From: Heliocidaris erythrogramma
Lineage: Eukaryota > Echinodermata > Echinoidea > Camarodonta > Echinometridae
Direction: 5' to 3'
Length of the DNA stretch: 64,000 nt
Assembly: GCA_025617745.1 (NCBI GenBank)
Contig: CM046858.1
Location: 27,784,453 to 27,848,452, forward strand
Part shown: piece by piece, positions 5,310 to 36,500 of the stretch
Layout: each line of letters starts with the position of its first letter
How positions within the stretch are numbered: position 1 is the first letter of the stretch
Notes under the pieces: model-generated
Told to the model about the DNA's origin: nothing
Database searches by the model: none
What the model saw: the letters and a program-made list of their open reading frames with translations, nothing else
Made by a program: the position numbers and the translations under genes

Positions 5310-8300
5310 GTGATTAAGAGTCAAAATAATTTGGTTACCTTCTTGTATCTAATGAATATAAAATAAATGCCTATACGAATGAATCACAAGGCTTGTGATG
5401 ATGTCGCCATAGCAAGACGATTATGAAATACATTTCATAATGATAAAATAATAATTATATGCGTAACTCTCTTCAGTCATAGGTGTACAAGACGAGAATT
5501 TTGGGGCTACGTTACCGTAATTAGCCAAAGGTTAGACTGAAACTAATGCACCAATTACTATAATTATGAAAAAGGGTTAACATTGTTTGCCCTCTAGCTA
5601 TACACGCTCCCTCGAAAAAAAGTTGAAAATCGGGAATCTGATGGCGAAATTGTGCCCCTGTTGTCCATCATTTTCTATGCGATAATGTAAGTTGGAAAAA
5701 ACGTTATCTCTTTTCCCCGTCTCTCTTCCGACTCTCATTGTAAATGAAGCGATGTTAACAAAAGAAATCAAAACTAGATGTAATTATTTCTGAAAGCCTT
5801 ATCCTATCAAGCTAATAAAAATAACTATATTCATTTATTTTCAAAGCAAAAATTAAAAGAGATTCAATGATCAGAAATAAATCGTTGACTGTTGAAAAAA
5901 GACGTTTGAAAGGTTCACCCCAAGAAATTTGAAACTAATATACATGTATAGACGTTTTGGCTTCTTTCTATGTAGTACACGCGGATTTGTTTTCTGAGTG
6001 TGTTTTTTAATAGGGCACTTGGTGGAAAGTAAAAAAATCATCCCAATGTTATATTGGACAGAAAATAGATCACTGCCTGATACGGGTTTGTTTTAATTAG
6101 TAATTTTGATATAAACAAGACGGTAATTTAAATATTTCTTTATGGAACAAGAATCATAACTGGAATGAAAAAGTAGCTTTCATTATCGGGTAGAATGGTT
6201 GATGATAATGATGACGTTGTCCATTAGTGTGCAATGAACAGCATGTTCTCGTATTGCCGTCATTTTTTTTTTTAATTATCAAGAAGCTGAAACAATTTAC
6301 TGTACTTGTTTCGCGCCTGTCTTGTTGCATGGTAAGGGGTATAAGCCAGACGATTTACTTTCAGACAAAAAGCCGGAACTTAGGGTAATAAAAAAACAAA
6401 AACAATAGCAGCTATATCCTGGCACCCTCAACATAAAGAAGCTAGCATCTATAAGGACATGATTGGCAAGTCGAGGTCATCATCTTTTGAAAGATGCTCA
6501 TTAAAAAGACATTTACGAACGATTAAGGACTAATACGATGACAAGGTGCGATGAACACCTGTATATAAATGGAAGGGTTTGGGTTTGAGTGCCATTCTAT
6601 TTCCAAAATAATTGAAATTCTTTCTGTAAAGGACCGAGTTCACAATTTAAAGTGTAAAGACACCATGGGGTGCGAGGATATAATTATGCGCACCCGGCAC
6701 CAGCATATTTTTTTGTTTTCATGACGCTGAATACTAGGGCTAATATTAATTTATGGACATCAATGTTTAGCCCGGCGCACACTATACGATCCGACTGCGA
6801 CCCGATTTTCGAACAAATTGCAGTTTGCATTAAATGAAAGTTTAAAAAAGTAAAATTATCTCATTTGTAGTTAGGAATAATGATACGAATACTAATATCG
6901 AAATTTTGGTTAACTACAATTCTTCTGGTTAGAGTAAAGGCCAAATTGGCTTCAAATCTTAGTCGATCGCAAGATTGGTATGACGTTACTACTATTTGGA
7001 ATTGAATTCGCTTTTATTCCTACACGGGGGCTCGCAGTAGCCCGGAATTTCGATTTTAGTATTCATACTACTATTCAGAACTTTGATCACGAAGATTTTA
7101 CATGTTTGAAGGTTCATATCAAATGTTATAACAACTTTTCCCAAAATCGCATCGTAGTCAGATCGTGCAGTGTGCCCCGGGCTTTACTTGTTAGGAAATG
7201 GGAAAGTGTAATATCAATGACACCCCTCCCCTCCCCTCTCTCTCTCTCTCTCTCTCCCACTACCCTCTTTCTCTGCCTCTCTCTCTCTCTCTCTCACACA
7301 CATTTCTCTGAATAAATAAAAGAAAAGGAACAATCACTCTTTTCTTCCTTATACAAAACACATTCGATTCTTCCCATCTTGAGAAAAACGATAATATACA
7401 TGTATGTAGTAGATATCGAAGCCTCATATTTTATGTTTCCGAAGTTTTATTATTCCACATAACTAGAAACGGTATTGCAAAGGAAGCAATAAAAGTAAAG
7501 CACACAAAACAATAAAAACAGTAAAAGAACAAAACAAAACTACAGCAAAAATTACCCTGTCAACGACAAAGCAATGTTAAAAGAATGTTATGAATACAAC
7601 ACTTTTCAATCAAAGCATAGATAATATACGAATGTAAAATAAACAGGTTTTAAACAAATTGCAATATTTCTTTTATTATGCACTATTTGGCTGTTTGATT
7701 GTTAAATATATGCCAGTGACATAACTATGCTACGAAATTGACAAATCTGGGACACATATTTTTTATGTTCATGGCTTTCTGATGACATAAGTCCAAGGTT
7801 ACGTAAGAGACTTTCAACATCAGATTTATCATATCATATCAAATTCGAAATGGGTTTATTTACATGAACAAGACATTCTATACTAGTAATTAAATGACAA
7901 AAATAACATATTGCAATTTTTGAGAAGTTCTTTTTGATGAAAATTAGTACTTTTAATCCTCTCATGAATCAAATTCAAGTATCATTAATTATAATCTAAA
8001 TATCATCTTAAATTTCATCATAATTCTATAATGTATTGGATACAGTACAGTGTCAATGTCACATTGTGTAACTATTTTGAACAATTACAATATACCATTG
8101 CCAATTTTGTTAATTCAGCTTGTAAATCTTACATTTAAATTTGTACAAAATAGAAAATGAATACTCAAGAAACATGATGCGTTGGTATGCCAAAAATTGT
8201 TTTGACTCTATTCTTATTTTCCTTTACCTGATTGTAAAGTACTTCCCAGTATTGGTGAATAACACAGATTTGGTGAAAATTTGTTTGATTTTATTGGTGC

Positions 8301-27824: not shown

Positions 27825-30800
27825 TCAAGCTTGGGTCACAGCTGGTGCTACGGACTCTGACACCCCAGCTTCTACTGGAGCCACTGCTGCTGCTGCTGCT
27901 GCAAGCTTTTCCTGCTCTTTTGTGTGTCTACAAAAGCAAAAGAAGAAAATTGTACCACACATTCAAATTTAGATAATTTATTGCACATTGCTAACAAAAG
28001 GTACCCACAAAATAAAATGGCAAAACATGTTCCGTACATTCAGATTTATTTAATGTGTGTACAAACAGAAGATACACACAAAATGAAAATGGTAAAAATT
28101 GTTCCATATTTTCAAATTTCAAATTTCCACAAGGACACAAAGGACGCTTGGATTCTCCACATGTATTGATAGTTCTGTGAATACTGCAAGTGAAGTGTGT
28201 TCTTTTGGGTCAATTTATACTACATCAGGGCCCCCATTTCATAAAACTTGTTATCAATAACAGCTGCCCCATTTCTATGACAAATTTGCTCTCAGTCAAT
28301 CAGATTCGAGAAGTTCAGTAGCTTATAGCAATTACTGTAACTTGTTATTGGTAACAAGTTTTATGAAACTGGGCCCTGGTCAGGCTCTGTGACCTCTCCC
28401 ACATGTTTGTCTTTTTATCATATGCAGCAGCATAAAGTACACTGGAATAATACTTACATGTGGTTCTTGAATGCTAAAAAAAGCCATGGAAAAAGAGGTA
28501 CAAAAGAACAGAACCGCTGCATGTTGCCCCTCCCCAGGAAACTTTATATTCTTAGCTACAACAAAATTGAAAGATCTTTTGAACAAACCCATCTACCTAA
28601 AATAAAGTCATGATTTGTCACATGTATTGACCTAATGATGTTACCAAAACACACCTCTATTAAAGCAAATTGAAGAGCAGCATCTGAATTTGTAAAAAAA
28701 AAAAATAAATAAATAAATAAATGAAAATAAAAGCAATTAAAGGCGGTCAGTCGCCGGTTTCAATGGGGAAAAATCTGTGTTTGCTGATGCTGCAAAATAG
28801 TTCTTGCGCATACGAAATTAGGTCTAGTCGAAAGTATATTGAGGATCAGCGAAATGTCTTTCTCCTCGGCAAAAATCCGCATAGATCGCTGTGATATTGT
28901 AAGTTGTGCTGAATATAGCGAACGAACATGTTTTGCGCTATGTGTATCCTGCAATCTGCTGTCTGACGCCGTACATTATATTTATACTATACTATAGAAC
29001 AAAGCAATTTCATCTTTATTATGGATGACACTTTCAGTATTTCGGAGTTAGCGACAGATATCTCAATTCTAAACGTGGAGGGAGATTTGGAGCCGACTGC
29101 CTGTAAATGTTCAGGAAGGTAGCTGCTGCAGTGCTGATTCAAAACTAGACCGAAATTTTCTGTCTCTCGTTCGTTAGCCTCTTATTTGGATAGGGTCGGC
29201 CATTCACTTAGAGACAGAAACGCTCCATTCACTCGCCTGTGCAAACTCACTGTCAACCGCTTGACAGTAGGCATGTCGTTTTTGTAAATCGTATTATTCA
29301 CATTTTAACAATATTTGTGTAAATTAAATAGATTAGGCCTAGGCTGTATACTTAAACGAACATGTTCAACTTACCAATTTGACTGTTATTCCTTTTAATG
29401 CTCCTTTTTCAGGTAATTCAGGGTCCAAGGTTTTCTCCGTTTGAAAATCTTCCAGCCGTATTCAAACTGTATAGTGTGTGCGTCAATGGGATTTGGTTTG
29501 CACAGGCGAGTGAATGGAGCGTTTCTGTCTCTAAGTGAATGGCCGACCCTATCCAAATAAGAGGCTAACGAACGAGAGACAGAAAATTTCGGTCTAATTC
29601 AAAACGGGCAGACGGATGTGCCCTTGCAAGAGTGAAGGTCATCCCTGCACACTGCGGTGTTCCTGCGGGAAACGTCGCCCGTGCAATGCAACCGGGAACC
29701 CGATGGCGATGACGATGAATCAACTTCAAATGTGAGTACGGTAGATCATTATCTCAGCCTATTTATCCGAACCAAGGTCTATGCAACAAATTCGATCATT
29801 TTTCTTGCGATTTGTCATTGTGTAATAACTAAATTAAGACTCAAGAGAAATATAATTTAATTATAGTGTGAATGTGAGATGTCACAGCCAGGGCCTAGCA
29901 GGCCCCTAGGTCTGAGATAGTGTGTTTGTAAGAATCTTCATTCAAAATGAAACTGAAGAAGGAAGAATGAGAAGAAGAAGAAGGAATCTATTTATAAATG
30001 AAGGTATGCCAAGATGTAATTAGAATCAACACCAGACATGTCAATTGGTGATTGGCGAACTGGCTTCACCTGTGTGAGCTGTGACGAGGTACTCCCCCCC
30101 CCCCCCCCCCCCCTGTAAAAAATACCAACATAAATTTATTTGAAAGGGGGGGGGGGAGTCTAGTACAGGCTTTTGCAAGTCAGAGTCACAGTAATGTTTG
30201 AATGTATACACACATGTATGTATGTATATCTAATTGTGACTCCAAAGATTCAAATACACCTAGTGGTACCAAATATATCAATACAATGGAACCTATTAAT
30301 ATTTTCCCATACAAATTTAATAATTTTATGATTTTTTTTCACCAAAACAGTATTTCTATACTTGAACTTTGAACAGGGTGGAATGTTCACTTTACATTAT
30401 TTACATTTTTCCTTAATTTATTCACTGTTGTTTTCTTACTCAATGTAGAAATTTGTGATGGATCGAGAGAGAGAGCTGATCTAGAACGCGTCACCATCCA
30501 GTTCCTCTGCAGATTCACAGATGTTTACTTGGATTCCATAGCAGCTGTAGAGCCTACCCAACCTGCTGAAGAAAGGCCTGGACCGAGCAGCTGGCCTGCA
30601 TCATGTTGTAGATGTGGTGGAAGATATGTGCCCATGCCAAAGGAGGTAGAGAATGTGTGTGTTGCCATTTCCGCACCTGCGTCATGACTGCTCAATACTT
30701 CACTGATGCATTTCTAAATGGCAATGTCTTGGTTGCATGCATGGCAGCAAGCAACAATGAATTTCCAAGGGACATTCCGAGGTTGAATGAATCGTACCAG

Positions 30801-33476
30801 CATTACAAACATACAAACGTACAAACAGTAATGTTTGAATGTATACACACATGTATGTATGTATGTATGTATGTGTTGGCTCAGTCAGTAGAGCGTCCGC
30901 CTCACAATCGGGAGGTCATGGGTTAGAACCTCGGCCGCGTCATACAAAAAGACGTTAAAAGATGGGAGTTGCTGCTACCTTGTTTGGCGTTCAACAATTG
31001 AAAGGATAGAGCAACGTCGATCTGGTGCACTGCACCTCAACAGTACGACAATACGCCTGACGGTGGACTGTACTGCAACTGAAGAAGAAAAAAATTCACG
31101 TATATATATTCACCATGGGTACTTGGGAGCAGGAAACAGGAGAGTTGTTCCATCATGTGCTACACTGCAGATAAGGTATGCCTATCTATTCCCCACAAGG
31201 GCTTACAAGGGCTTCGTCAATGGAATACGAGACTGAAATCCATTTAACATCAATACTGGTCTTGATTTTTTTTATGTCTCCTTTTATTGTTGAAATTTAG
31301 ATCTGCTGGACATAGAACTGTTATCCTTCTTTTAAAAAATTTAAATTGTTTATTATAGTTCCTGTTTACATTCACCTTTTTCTTAGTGATTGTAGTATGT
31401 ACATGTATGTACAAAAGAAAGCATTTTCTGTGTGTAATCATTTAACATAATATTTACGTTAACATTTATCAGAGAGGAAATATATTCATGTCATTTGAAA
31501 CAAACCAAAAATCTTATCTGATGAAGGGTTTCTGTTATGACATTGTATAAACTTCTTTTAATCTATTTTTCCCTGTGTATTTCAACGCATTCCATGACCA
31601 TGAATACGGTATGTATGTCTTCTGTGATGTTTTTTTTCTATTTATGGTGAATATTTAGTCTGATTTTGTCATGCTGTTTTTAGCTGAATTAGTAGTCCAT
31701 TGGGTTTGCTACATGATGTATATTGTGTGAAGTGAGATGCACATGAATTACATAAACTTCAATAAGAGTTTGCCATTTGGTGATCATAAGAAGTGGTTGA
31801 TCAAAACGATTGTAATATATTGTATCGATGCATGTAATTACAACCAAACAATACCACTTGCCAGCATATAAGTGATTGTGTGTGACGTACATTTAACAAC
31901 ATATCTTTTGTACCTTCATGTATCTGTGTTCCTGACTGTAATCATTTTATTTACCGGTAGGTATTTATGGTATTATAAACTGCAATATTGCAATATTCAA
32001 TGAAAATATCCTTGCCAGCATATTCCTGTGTGAATGTCCATAATATAATGCAATATGAAAACTATACATACATGTATGTCCAAAATAAATCTGCCAGTGA
32101 ACGTTGCCAATTTCAGTTGAATGTTGGGTAGCCTTTGATAATGTGATCACACTAAATAGTGAAGTTGTTTTCCTTCCAAGATTTACTTTTATTGTGATCT
32201 GTATACACTGTTTGTTTTAGAATTTGCTTATACAATATGCATAGATCCACAAACCTTTCCTGAAGTATGCCTACATGTATACTGTTGAAAGTATAGTTTT
32301 ACACTTCTCAGCTGATTTTTGTATTTTATTTATTACAATTTGATATACATGTATTCTAGATCCACAAACTTGCCTTGAAACATGCACATTTAGTGTTGAA
32401 ATAATAGTTTTGCAATATGAAGTTGATTTCTTCTCATACTAGTTGTATAGATTTATCAGCAGTTATATAATTTTTAAGAAACGTATGTATTATGCATACA
32501 GGGACATTTCTGTTAATTTTTTATATGCCATTTGCTATTCCATATGGTATGCCTATACTGTTATAGTAAAGTATCGTTTTATACTACCGAGCTGATTTTT
32601 GTATATATTTTAGTGTTGACAATATAGTTTCAATGTTCAGTTGATTTTTACTCTCACTTGGGTAGTTTTATTACAAGTTATACATGTATTATTTTAAAGA
32701 AACTTAAAAGTATTACATACAGGAACACCTTTTCTACTTTTCTTTTTCCTTGTGATTTGCCATTTGCAATGGCACTGCATGTAACATGTAATGAAGTAAA
32801 GGAAGACAGCATGAAAAAGTACTCTTCATTGTGTGTACGTGTCACAAGTTTTGAAGTATTGTAATCTACATACCTTTTATTTCATTTTATTTTTGTACAG
32901 TGGAGCATCATTAATGAACTTCTTGGAACCAAGGAAATTCCCTCTTTATATCAAAACCTTTTTATACCAGGGCTAAAATACAATAGAATACAAAAAAGTG
33001 GGGACTGGCAAAAATACTGTCTTATAATGAGTTTGTTATACCATTGTACATTATAAGGAGGTTCCACTGTACAATGTATATACATGGAGGAAGGCATATG
33101 GAGTGAGATAGGAGAGAAGAGAAACAGGAGGGAAATAGAGAGAGAGAGAGAACAAGGGAGAAAAATTATCAAGGTCATGAGAGAAAGAGAGAGTGAAAGA
33201 TAAGATAAACGGAACGAGCTAGAATCAGGGCTGTCAAGTAAAGTTTTCCTCCTCAAGTTTATCAATACAAAATTAAGATTAATCTATAATTCTATTATCA
33301 GGCCCCCTTTTTTTTCTTCTTTTAAAAATAATTCCTGTCAACTCTTTGCACGATGGCCATTCACTTAGTGTCCAGTTTTTAAAGATTGATTCCCCTCTTT
33401 CGAAATCAGCCAGAGAAGAGAAAGGGAAGAGAAAGAGGAGGGAGAGAGGGAACAAGGGAGATAAATTATCAAGGTC

Positions 33477-33517
<41 letters not shown>

Positions 33518-36500
33518 AGATGAGATAGAGAAACGGAACGTAAGTGAGAATAAAAGAGAGAGTGGAGGGAATATTAGTGGGTGTCGGGTGGGTGTAAGGC
33601 CATCGCCAGGGTTCACCTCCGGGGCGCACCCGGCGCTGGCGACCGTAGCCCGTGGATGTACACTGTACGATTTGCAAATGGTGTGCAGCTCAAGCAGATA
33701 CAACACGAACTTTTTATTCAAACTTTCCTTGGAGGAAACAAGCAGCCGACGTCCAAATTTATTTGTGTTCAATCCACAAATTGTACGCGCTGTGGATACG
33801 TAATCTCGTCTGACTGTCTCTCCTCTCGACCTCCATTTCGTTCGAAAACCGCTATTTTTTTCGTGCCTCTAGACTAGGCATAGACCATAGCATGGAGTAT
33901 CTCAGAAACTGAAACATAGCGTATTGCTGGCAAGCTCAGCTCTCGCCCCTGCGCTGGCAGGCTGTTTACAAATTGTCCGAGCGATTCCGGAAATCTCCGA
34001 ACTTGCCTTAGGTGGGACAGCATAGAAATACACGGGCACCGACGACTGACCGCCTTTAACTGAATGAAAACACAGTATAGCAGTTTCACTTTCAGGCATT
34101 TCCCTACTAAATTTTTATCATACAAATGAGAAGTAATCCAGAAGAGCCTTGAGACATGCAAATTTTAGATTAAATCTGTTCTAGGATTCTTTTTCTTCAC
34201 AAACCTTACAATCAACTACAGGATTCCCCTTCTCACTTACAGATATATCCGGAGAAGTTGCATGAGTCCAGTAATTCCCAGAAGAAAATTCACACTGAAG
34301 AGATTATAGTTCTTGGGTATAATAACAAGAGAGTATCTGGCCCATATCACACCTACATAAAAACAATGGCAAAGAGGCAAGGTCATTATAAATAGCTAAA
34401 ATCAATTGTTTAAATAAGTACATGTACCAGAAGAAAGTTCGCACGGAAGGGTCCAGTTCTTAGAAATAATTACAAAAGAGTATCTGGCCCACACCACACC
34501 TAGGTGAACATAGGGGCAGAGAGGAAAGGTCATAATTTGAATTGACTAAAGAGCAATTAAACATTTGAGAGCAAGATTCAGAAGCATTTCAACATTTCTG
34601 GGAATTGATCCCGCCATGCACATAAATAATGTCCTGTATAGGCAGACAAGGGCTCTGTTATTTACATTTTCAAATTTGTCATTTTCACAGCCTCTGACAA
34701 ACTACATGTACATGTAATCTTAGAGTCATTGAGACTTTGATAATTAACTGTTGTTTCTATAGTGCCTTACTGGTCATCAATAACTGACGGAAGTGCTTAT
34801 GGTGTGTTATTACCCCGGTCATTGAATTCCTTTATGTTTCTGCACTTTACAATGCAAATACATGCTGATCAAACTACAATGACATTCACATCCTACTGGA
34901 TACACTCAACCCCTGGGTAGAGATAAGCAATGTAAAAAAAAATGCCTTTATCAAGGACATAAGTGCTGTGCTGGGGGCTTGAACCCATGACCTTTGCAGT
35001 CTCCTTGTAGTCCGCAAGCACAGACCCTAATTTGACACTTTATCAGAATAATCATTGTCTTGAGAGATGCCTAAACCAGCTACCGACCGGTTGTGTCAAG
35101 GAGTCAGGAGCAGCTATATTACATGGTCTATGGTAGTCTTACAGCACAGACTTTCTTTTACGACTATAAACCAGGGTTTGTGCCTGCAAACTAGTCTCAT
35201 TGCATTAATGAACATGAATCTGAACATACCTGTAGCAGCCAGGGCACCGGACTGCCTAACACTGAGCTTCTCTGCAGGACGAGTATAGTCAGCAATACCA
35301 GCAAAAACAAGGCACTGAGGACAAAATAAGAAGGGTACCAAATATTCCTCATGATTGTCAGCTACGAGTGAGAATTGTAGAGAGTTTAATTGCATTATGC
35401 AGGTGATGTAAAGAATATGAACATGCACAATGCCTACATGTACAGTGTATTTGTACATAAATTCTTTTCTATCTTCACCAATGGGGATTTGAATATTGAA
35501 ACTCTTTGCAATATCAACATCCACAGAGGAGCACAAATTTTGCACAAATTAAACACTTTATATTACTTTTATTGTTTACTATTAAACAAAGAAGCATAGA
35601 CAGCACCATGCTTTACTCCATATACCTCGTTCCATTTACCTTAAAATTCATGCACTTCACCATGTAAACCCTGTAAAAGACCATTTATCTTCTTTGCTAT
35701 AATTTCGTTTAAACTGAACAACAGCATTTGTGAAGTTGCACAACTATTCATAACTATTTACATGTAAGTACCCCAAATAATCAACATTTTCTTTGCTATT
35801 GGTTGAACTTTTTTAAAAATTAAGAACCCCAGCATAGTACATGAATGTCAAGTTGTTTAAATGTTCAAGTACACTAGCACAAAATAAGCAACACTTACCC
35901 ATTTGAAAGTAGGAGCCCAAAAGTGAATAGTTTTTAGTCCTATTTCGTGTAAAATAAAAATTAAACAAAAAGATTGCTTTTACTGTGACACTACAGTCAT
36001 AAATGTATTTCCATTAAGACAAGTCAAACCAGCATGACATATCAAAGAAAAAATAATTTTCTGTTAAAGACAAACATAATTTTGAGTTTTCAAGGGGAAT
36101 TTGACAGCATTCAAGTATTCATCCAATAACAGTGTGTCTCCAACAATGGACTTCACTTTTACAACGGACAGGGGAGCATTTCATCAAGCGTTTTGTCAGT
36201 GATTTTTACTGACAAATTTGCTCTCAGCCAATCAGATGCAAGGATTACAGTAGCTTATAATAACAGTTGTCGGCAAAAATCACTGATGAAACGTTCCCCA
36301 GGTCTTACACAATGTGCATACACTTCATTAACTTCAGAATAGGGAAATACATGTAGATCATCATAAATTCTTAACTCAAACAGAGCTGAATGCTCTCTGA
36401 TATCTCAAAGACAAATCCAAATGGGATTATGCCTAGGAGTTTTGCCGAGTGTGATACACGTATGTGAACTGAACATACGCATCACTTTGGAATTCCACCA

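Follow-up and report, generated by a model that had tools for sequence, protein, structure and literature searches.

Kolobok transposons of the Kol0 lineage (Kolobok-1_XT type) are described as encoding, together with a DDE transposase, an accessory protein named KolX, which adopts the ballast fold (Kojima & Bao 2022, PMC9587614). According to the same article, P2X7 arose by fusion with KolX, and NANOR was likely also derived from KolX. An earlier proposal of ballast-domain capture was made by Rump et al. 2020 (PMC7016195), and the string 'transpos' is absent from its text. Among the papers available for searching, none was found on sea urchin Kolobok transposase and TTAA. Here we report on a transposon with a ballast relic found in a stretch of 64,000 nt of the sea urchin Heliocidaris erythrogramma (contig CM046858.1, positions 27,784,453 to 27,848,452; hereafter the window, whose positions are used as coordinates), and on its relatives in the same genome (1.06 Gb), in which all the work was done.

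Very probably, the element is one member of a family that descends from a Kol0-type Kolobok, has no transposase of its own and depends for its movement on a Kol0 transposase acting in trans. The first-pass annotation of the window had described a TTAA-flanked transposon at 28737..34059, with ends matching at 17 of 18 positions and a P2X7-ballast-like gene inside, and had suggested that transposition by a Kolobok-like element could explain how the ballast domain spread. The coordinates were exact, both TTAA copies and both ends being read in the window; the idea was sound but not new, since it had been published by Kojima & Bao 2022 (PMC9587614). What the window adds is one more member, a transposase-less one, and a count in one genome. 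The element and its parts are as follows.

28741..34055, + strand (the direction of the KolX/ballast relic): Kolobok-type DNA transposon, non-autonomous, 5315 bp
28737..28740, no strand: left target-site copy TTAA, read in the window (flanks also seen in whole copies)
34056..34059, no strand: right target-site copy TTAA, read in the window
28741..28758, + strand: left terminal inverted repeat AGGCGGTCAGTCGCCGGT, 18 bases, 133 exact copies in the genome, reversed control 0
34038..34055, - strand: right terminal inverted repeat, reverse complement AGGCGGTCAGTCGTCGGT, 18 bases, 118 exact copies in the genome, reversed control 0
29021..29122, + strand: KolX relic, first exon, starting MDDTFSISELATD and followed by an in-frame TAG; located by tblastn with the KolX exon of locus L050
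29606..29731, + strand: KolX relic, cysteine-rich (CXC-like) segment, followed by a GTGAGT donor-like site (by eye); also in sister copies
30449..31236, + strand: ballast (P2RX7_C) exon of the KolX relic, interrupted and with a broken reading frame; its start was set by eye at an acceptor-like site

A repeat analysis scored the same pair of ends as 25-nt arms, 92% complementary. The ends of piggyBac transposons are CC...GG next to TTAA; such termini were not found in the window or in the 20 copies compared with it, all of which read AGG...CCT. The terminal bases 5'-AG...CT-3' of these copies fit the RR...YY criterion given for Kolobok (PMC9587614). KolobokP belongs to the same superfamily and differs in its long terminal direct repeats of ~450/660 bp, none of which was seen in the window copy (region 28500-34300, where inspection covered the 20 largest among 41 families of direct repeats).

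The element belongs to a family. The 13-base end occurs 141 + 132 times genome-wide, against 7 + 4 for the reversed pattern. The pairing of ends made use of exact matches only, with the first 100 left ends (complete for contigs 1-12 and most of contig 13) and 89 places of right ends, up to contig 13. We observed that 79 of the 100 left ends faced a right end in inverted orientation no more than 20 kb away, where ~0.14 were expected; the partners are 78 distinct right ends, since one serves two left ends. Other copies sharing both ends, for which the first-pass annotation had proposed a search, do occur. One pair had the same direction, none pointed outward, and 21 left ends were unpaired. The lengths of 56 of the 79 pairs fell at 4.4-5.1 kb. 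TTAA was present on both sides in 28/28 copies that were fetched whole, the choice having fallen on copies in which both 13-base ends were exact; L029/L030, fetched as halves, were left out of this count. Substitutions among 18 aligned copies ranged from 0.2 to 5%, the nearest of the 17 aligned sisters to the window copy being L017, at 0.27%. Moreover, short versions of 245-279 bp (L040, L045 and L048) have similar ends and TTAA, with no room for a gene.

Empty sites were found for two of the 28 whole copies, L028 and L036, whose joined flanks (~45-70 bases per side) matched uninterrupted copies of dispersed repeats at 5 places among the fetched loci. TTAA was kept at 4 of these 5 places, the one without it being in L050; the place in L001 lies only ~0.8 kb from the L036 insertion itself. 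No empty site of the window copy was found among the fetched loci of the same genome, with a joined-flank query that carried one extra base.

Both the first and the ballast exon of KolX were found by tblastn, with the exons of L050, which is another family, in 29/29 long copies (20 + 8, L029/L030 being counted once, plus the window); whether ballast genes lie between such ends had been asked in the first-pass annotation. The least significant hits were those of exon 1 in L025 (E 5e-4) and of the ballast exon in L037 (E 4e-5). In the window itself the Pfam P2RX7_C match covers the C-terminal piece only and scores 13.7 bits (E 0.057), below the cut-off of 23.5, and one cysteine of the first cluster is replaced by tyrosine (by eye). 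The homology to the ballast is better seen in the sister copy L049, in which an open stretch of 153 amino acids matches PF20478 with 41.1 bits against the cut-off of 23.5 (profile positions 68-154), and P2X7 residues 464-553 in the Protein Data Bank (PDB) with E 8.5e-4. L049 was considered as an intact copy and discarded: the frame shifts before the C-terminal part of the ballast, the match to the family extends to ~4 kb only, and the copy runs into Ns.

The ballast homology of the gene reported in the first-pass annotation was confirmed, but in all readable copies the family's KolX gene is a pseudogene. Two in-frame stops in the first exon are common to 20 of the 21 copies examined, the remaining one, L025, having no exact anchor and not being readable; the L050 gene reads on where the first exon of the family has its stops. 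No single frame through the whole ballast exon was seen by eye in 18 translated copies. Since the same stops occur in 20/20 readable copies, KolX was dead in their ancestor. Divergence along the 18-copy alignment was uneven; selection on the relic is an unattractive idea given the shared stops. The 'CXC' label given to the cysteine-rich segment holds as a cysteine pattern only: its homologue in L050 (7738-8046, - strand) had no Pfam match at E<=1, including the Tesmin/TSO1-like CXC domain.

Two Kolobok-type queries from the same genome detected no transposase at E<=0.01 in any of the 29 long copies, and no DDD/E transposase with C/DxxH was found between the ends. The element is therefore filed as a transposase-less derivative and not as an autonomous Kolobok, and, with KolX being a pseudogene, it is not itself an autonomous carrier. 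In the scheme that we favour, an autonomous Kol0 element would have lost its transposase while its ends and KolX remained; these ends would be recognised in trans by the transposase of a Kol0 element elsewhere, which would excise the family's copies and place them into TTAA sites. Multiplication of the readable copies came after the death of KolX, and the window copy would have been inserted at a TTAA beside an exon of a mitochondrial pyruvate carrier (MPC) gene.

To place the family in the context of Kol0, ballast genes and transposases were compared genome-wide. P2RX7_C matches were found at at least 150 places, which is a lower bound, as 463 candidates were seen and 150 scored. A transposase piece from L052, which adjoins a ballast match, gave 70 matches at 61 loci when used as query; 22 of the 61 had a ballast match within 15 kb, against 0.26 expected, and 23/23 pairings were convergent, while 39 had no ballast match within reach. 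The best ballast locus, L050, scores 88 bits with P2RX7_C and matches P2X7 in PDB with E 1.5e-13 (residues ~465-591). Its ballast gene faces, 7.5 kb away, an open frame of 570 amino acids that matches PF20700 with 41.4 bits and in which GDGR, TDAH, WDVWH and SLESFH, read by eye, are consistent with the D, D, DxxH and E that such a transposase should have. L050 also has a left-end-like TTAAAGGAGG; full-length matches of this stretch, at 93%, were obtained at its own position and at two further places, along with 11 partial ones, and no right end of the L050 element was found. TTAA-flanked inverted ends inside L050, L051 and L052 were not convincing, a few weak or low-complexity rows being obtained for L051 and L052. 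Working ballast proteins more likely come from complete Kol0 loci, in which KolX faces the transposase (near C11:58549742-58561379, C8:2609890-2615169 and C5:17421107-17429125), and the ballast domain in the window copy is inert baggage. The spread of the domain by Kolobok-like transposition, as the first-pass annotation had it, is backed by the 22 paired loci, but the element on which it was proposed is not the autonomous carrier.

Two further features of the ballast matches were observed. Clusters of 3-4 P2RX7_C matches, a few kb apart and on one strand, lie at C15:31286680-31297853, C11:22196077-22202198 and C7:42458659-42461909, and are perhaps tandem arrays. Many short ballast matches fall at profile positions ~132-184, perhaps representing another multi-copy family with the C-terminal piece only.

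Several results weigh against a Kol0 origin of the family. An autonomous partner with the same ends, suggested by the first-pass annotation as something to search for, was not found when 105 transposase places, merged by hand from matches to PF20700 and to two Kolobok-type proteins, were compared with 123 exact-match ends. Kol0 parentage is therefore deduced from the terminal bases, the TTAA and the KolX relic, and not from a matching transposase. The left ends are listed in full only through contig 12 and for most of contig 13, as exact matches only, and of the 13 end pairs longer than 5.6 kb three were read whole (L025, L026 and L029/L030), each being the usual element plus an insertion, which in L029 is a reverse transcriptase similar to that of long interspersed nuclear elements; for a fourth long pair (C5:21129345) only the inner copy, L033, was read. 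In addition, the L052 query had been chosen for its ballast neighbour, and several of the 22 paired loci are near-identical, so that fewer independent families stand behind this count. With the PF20700 model as query only 4 of 56 matches had a ballast match within 20 kb, and 127 of the 150 ballast matches have no match to the L052 query within 15 kb. We take the unpaired ballast and transposase loci to be relics or other lineages.

The only transposase place within 20 kb of such ends lies in L025, inside a nested element with other ends. This nested transposon (L025:2516-6912, in C6:48951680-48960740) is ~4.4 kb long, has CCCAT...ATGGG ends and an apparent TA duplication, and contains the PF20700 match, which was therefore rejected as the family's own transposase. 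As for more distant candidates, two broken transposase matches (C4:18561514 / C4:18606560 and C4:18756511 / C4:18794040) lie each 37-45 kb from a AGGCGGTCAGTCG end; the two sets are ~190 kb apart and possibly reflect a segmental duplication. In L043 (4788-6860, - strand) we noticed an open frame of 691 amino acids with no Pfam match at E<=0.001, whose neighbour frame, 6812-7459, has a weak reverse-transcriptase match.

Could the element be moved, instead, by a piggyBac-type transposase, with the KolX relic captured secondarily? The TTAA duplication is common to piggyBac and Kolobok, but the AG...CT termini differ from the CC...GG of piggyBac, and the transposases facing ballast genes in this genome are Mutator/Kolobok-like, although piggyBac transposase was not searched for. 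A few piggyBac families do have KolX-like proteins, which reportedly lack the ballast cysteines, whereas the relic retains most of them (by eye); the ends of the family are of the RR...YY form stated for Kolobok (PMC9587614). We consider a piggyBac origin quite unlikely.

Slightly less credible still, and in our opinion very unlikely, is that an unrelated non-autonomous transposon picked up a ballast gene of the host on a single occasion and multiplied it as a passenger. In favour of this, several separate exons are retained, KolX had died by the time the readable copies multiplied, and 127 of the 150 ballast matches have no Kolobok-type transposase within 15 kb. On the other hand, ballast is often a transposon gene in this genome, as the always convergent pairs at 22 of the 61 transposase loci indicate, and KolX adjoins one end of the element and reads inward, as a deletion within a Kol0 element would be expected to leave it. 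Finally, the chance co-occurrence of these ends and this gene has a negligible probability, given 79 paired left ends where 0.14 were expected and the relic in all the 29 long copies, and nothing was found in its favour.

The transposase-less family derived from Kol0 that we propose can be compared with the described systems as follows. It shares with Kol0 the TTAA duplication, the RR...YY ends and the KolX/ballast exons (PMC9587614), and differs in having no detected transposase of its own and, in readable copies, a KolX pseudogene. With the P2X7 ballast and the NANOR-like proteins (PMC7016195) it shares a homologous ballast domain (P2X7 residues ~465-591, through L050), but there is no channel, the ballast is borne by a transposon, and the window copy is not able to code for the domain in intact form. 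Non-autonomous TTAA elements and miniature inverted-repeat transposable elements also have inverted ends without transposase, and the 245-279-bp versions occur here too; the main form of the family, however, is ~4.5 kb long and retains a recognisable accessory gene.

These data are a quantitative check, in one genome, of the published claim that the ballast of P2X7, an immune receptor, is a transposon accessory protein: the domain recurs beside Kolobok-type transposase, always convergent where paired. Moreover, elements without a transposase carry ballast exons along, and one such element lies next to an exon of the host, so that exon capture becomes a concrete route to P2X7 that can be searched for. 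A bolder and unlikely extension is that transposase-less carriers, and not the rarer autonomous elements, might be the main vehicles dropping spliceable ballast exons into host introns, so that a carrier inserted in sense, with an open ballast exon, could have brought the P2X7 tail to a P2X4-like gene.

The remaining features of the locus are the host exon and two insertions within the element.

34237..34392, - strand: host MPC exon, PF03650, 50.4 bits, profile positions 51-89 of 110
29146..29596, no strand: nested foldback element of 451 bp inside the KolX relic, with 104-bp arms, 99% complementary, and a 9-bp duplication, ATTCAAAAC
30806..31105, no strand: insertion of ~300 bp in the ballast exon, resembling a short interspersed nuclear element by eye

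The transposon lies ~180 bp from the MPC exon and is antisense to it. As the MPC profile continues past the exon, the window copy probably lies in an intron of the MPC gene, and, because of the antisense orientation, a contribution of the ballast exon to the MPC transcript is not expected. As for the insertions, the foldback was missing from all the 20 copies compared with the window, and ARAGORN found no tRNA in the ~300-bp insertion, which, among the 18 aligned copies, is present in the window and in L017 only. It is mainly because of these two insertions that the window element is longer than the usual 4.5 kb.

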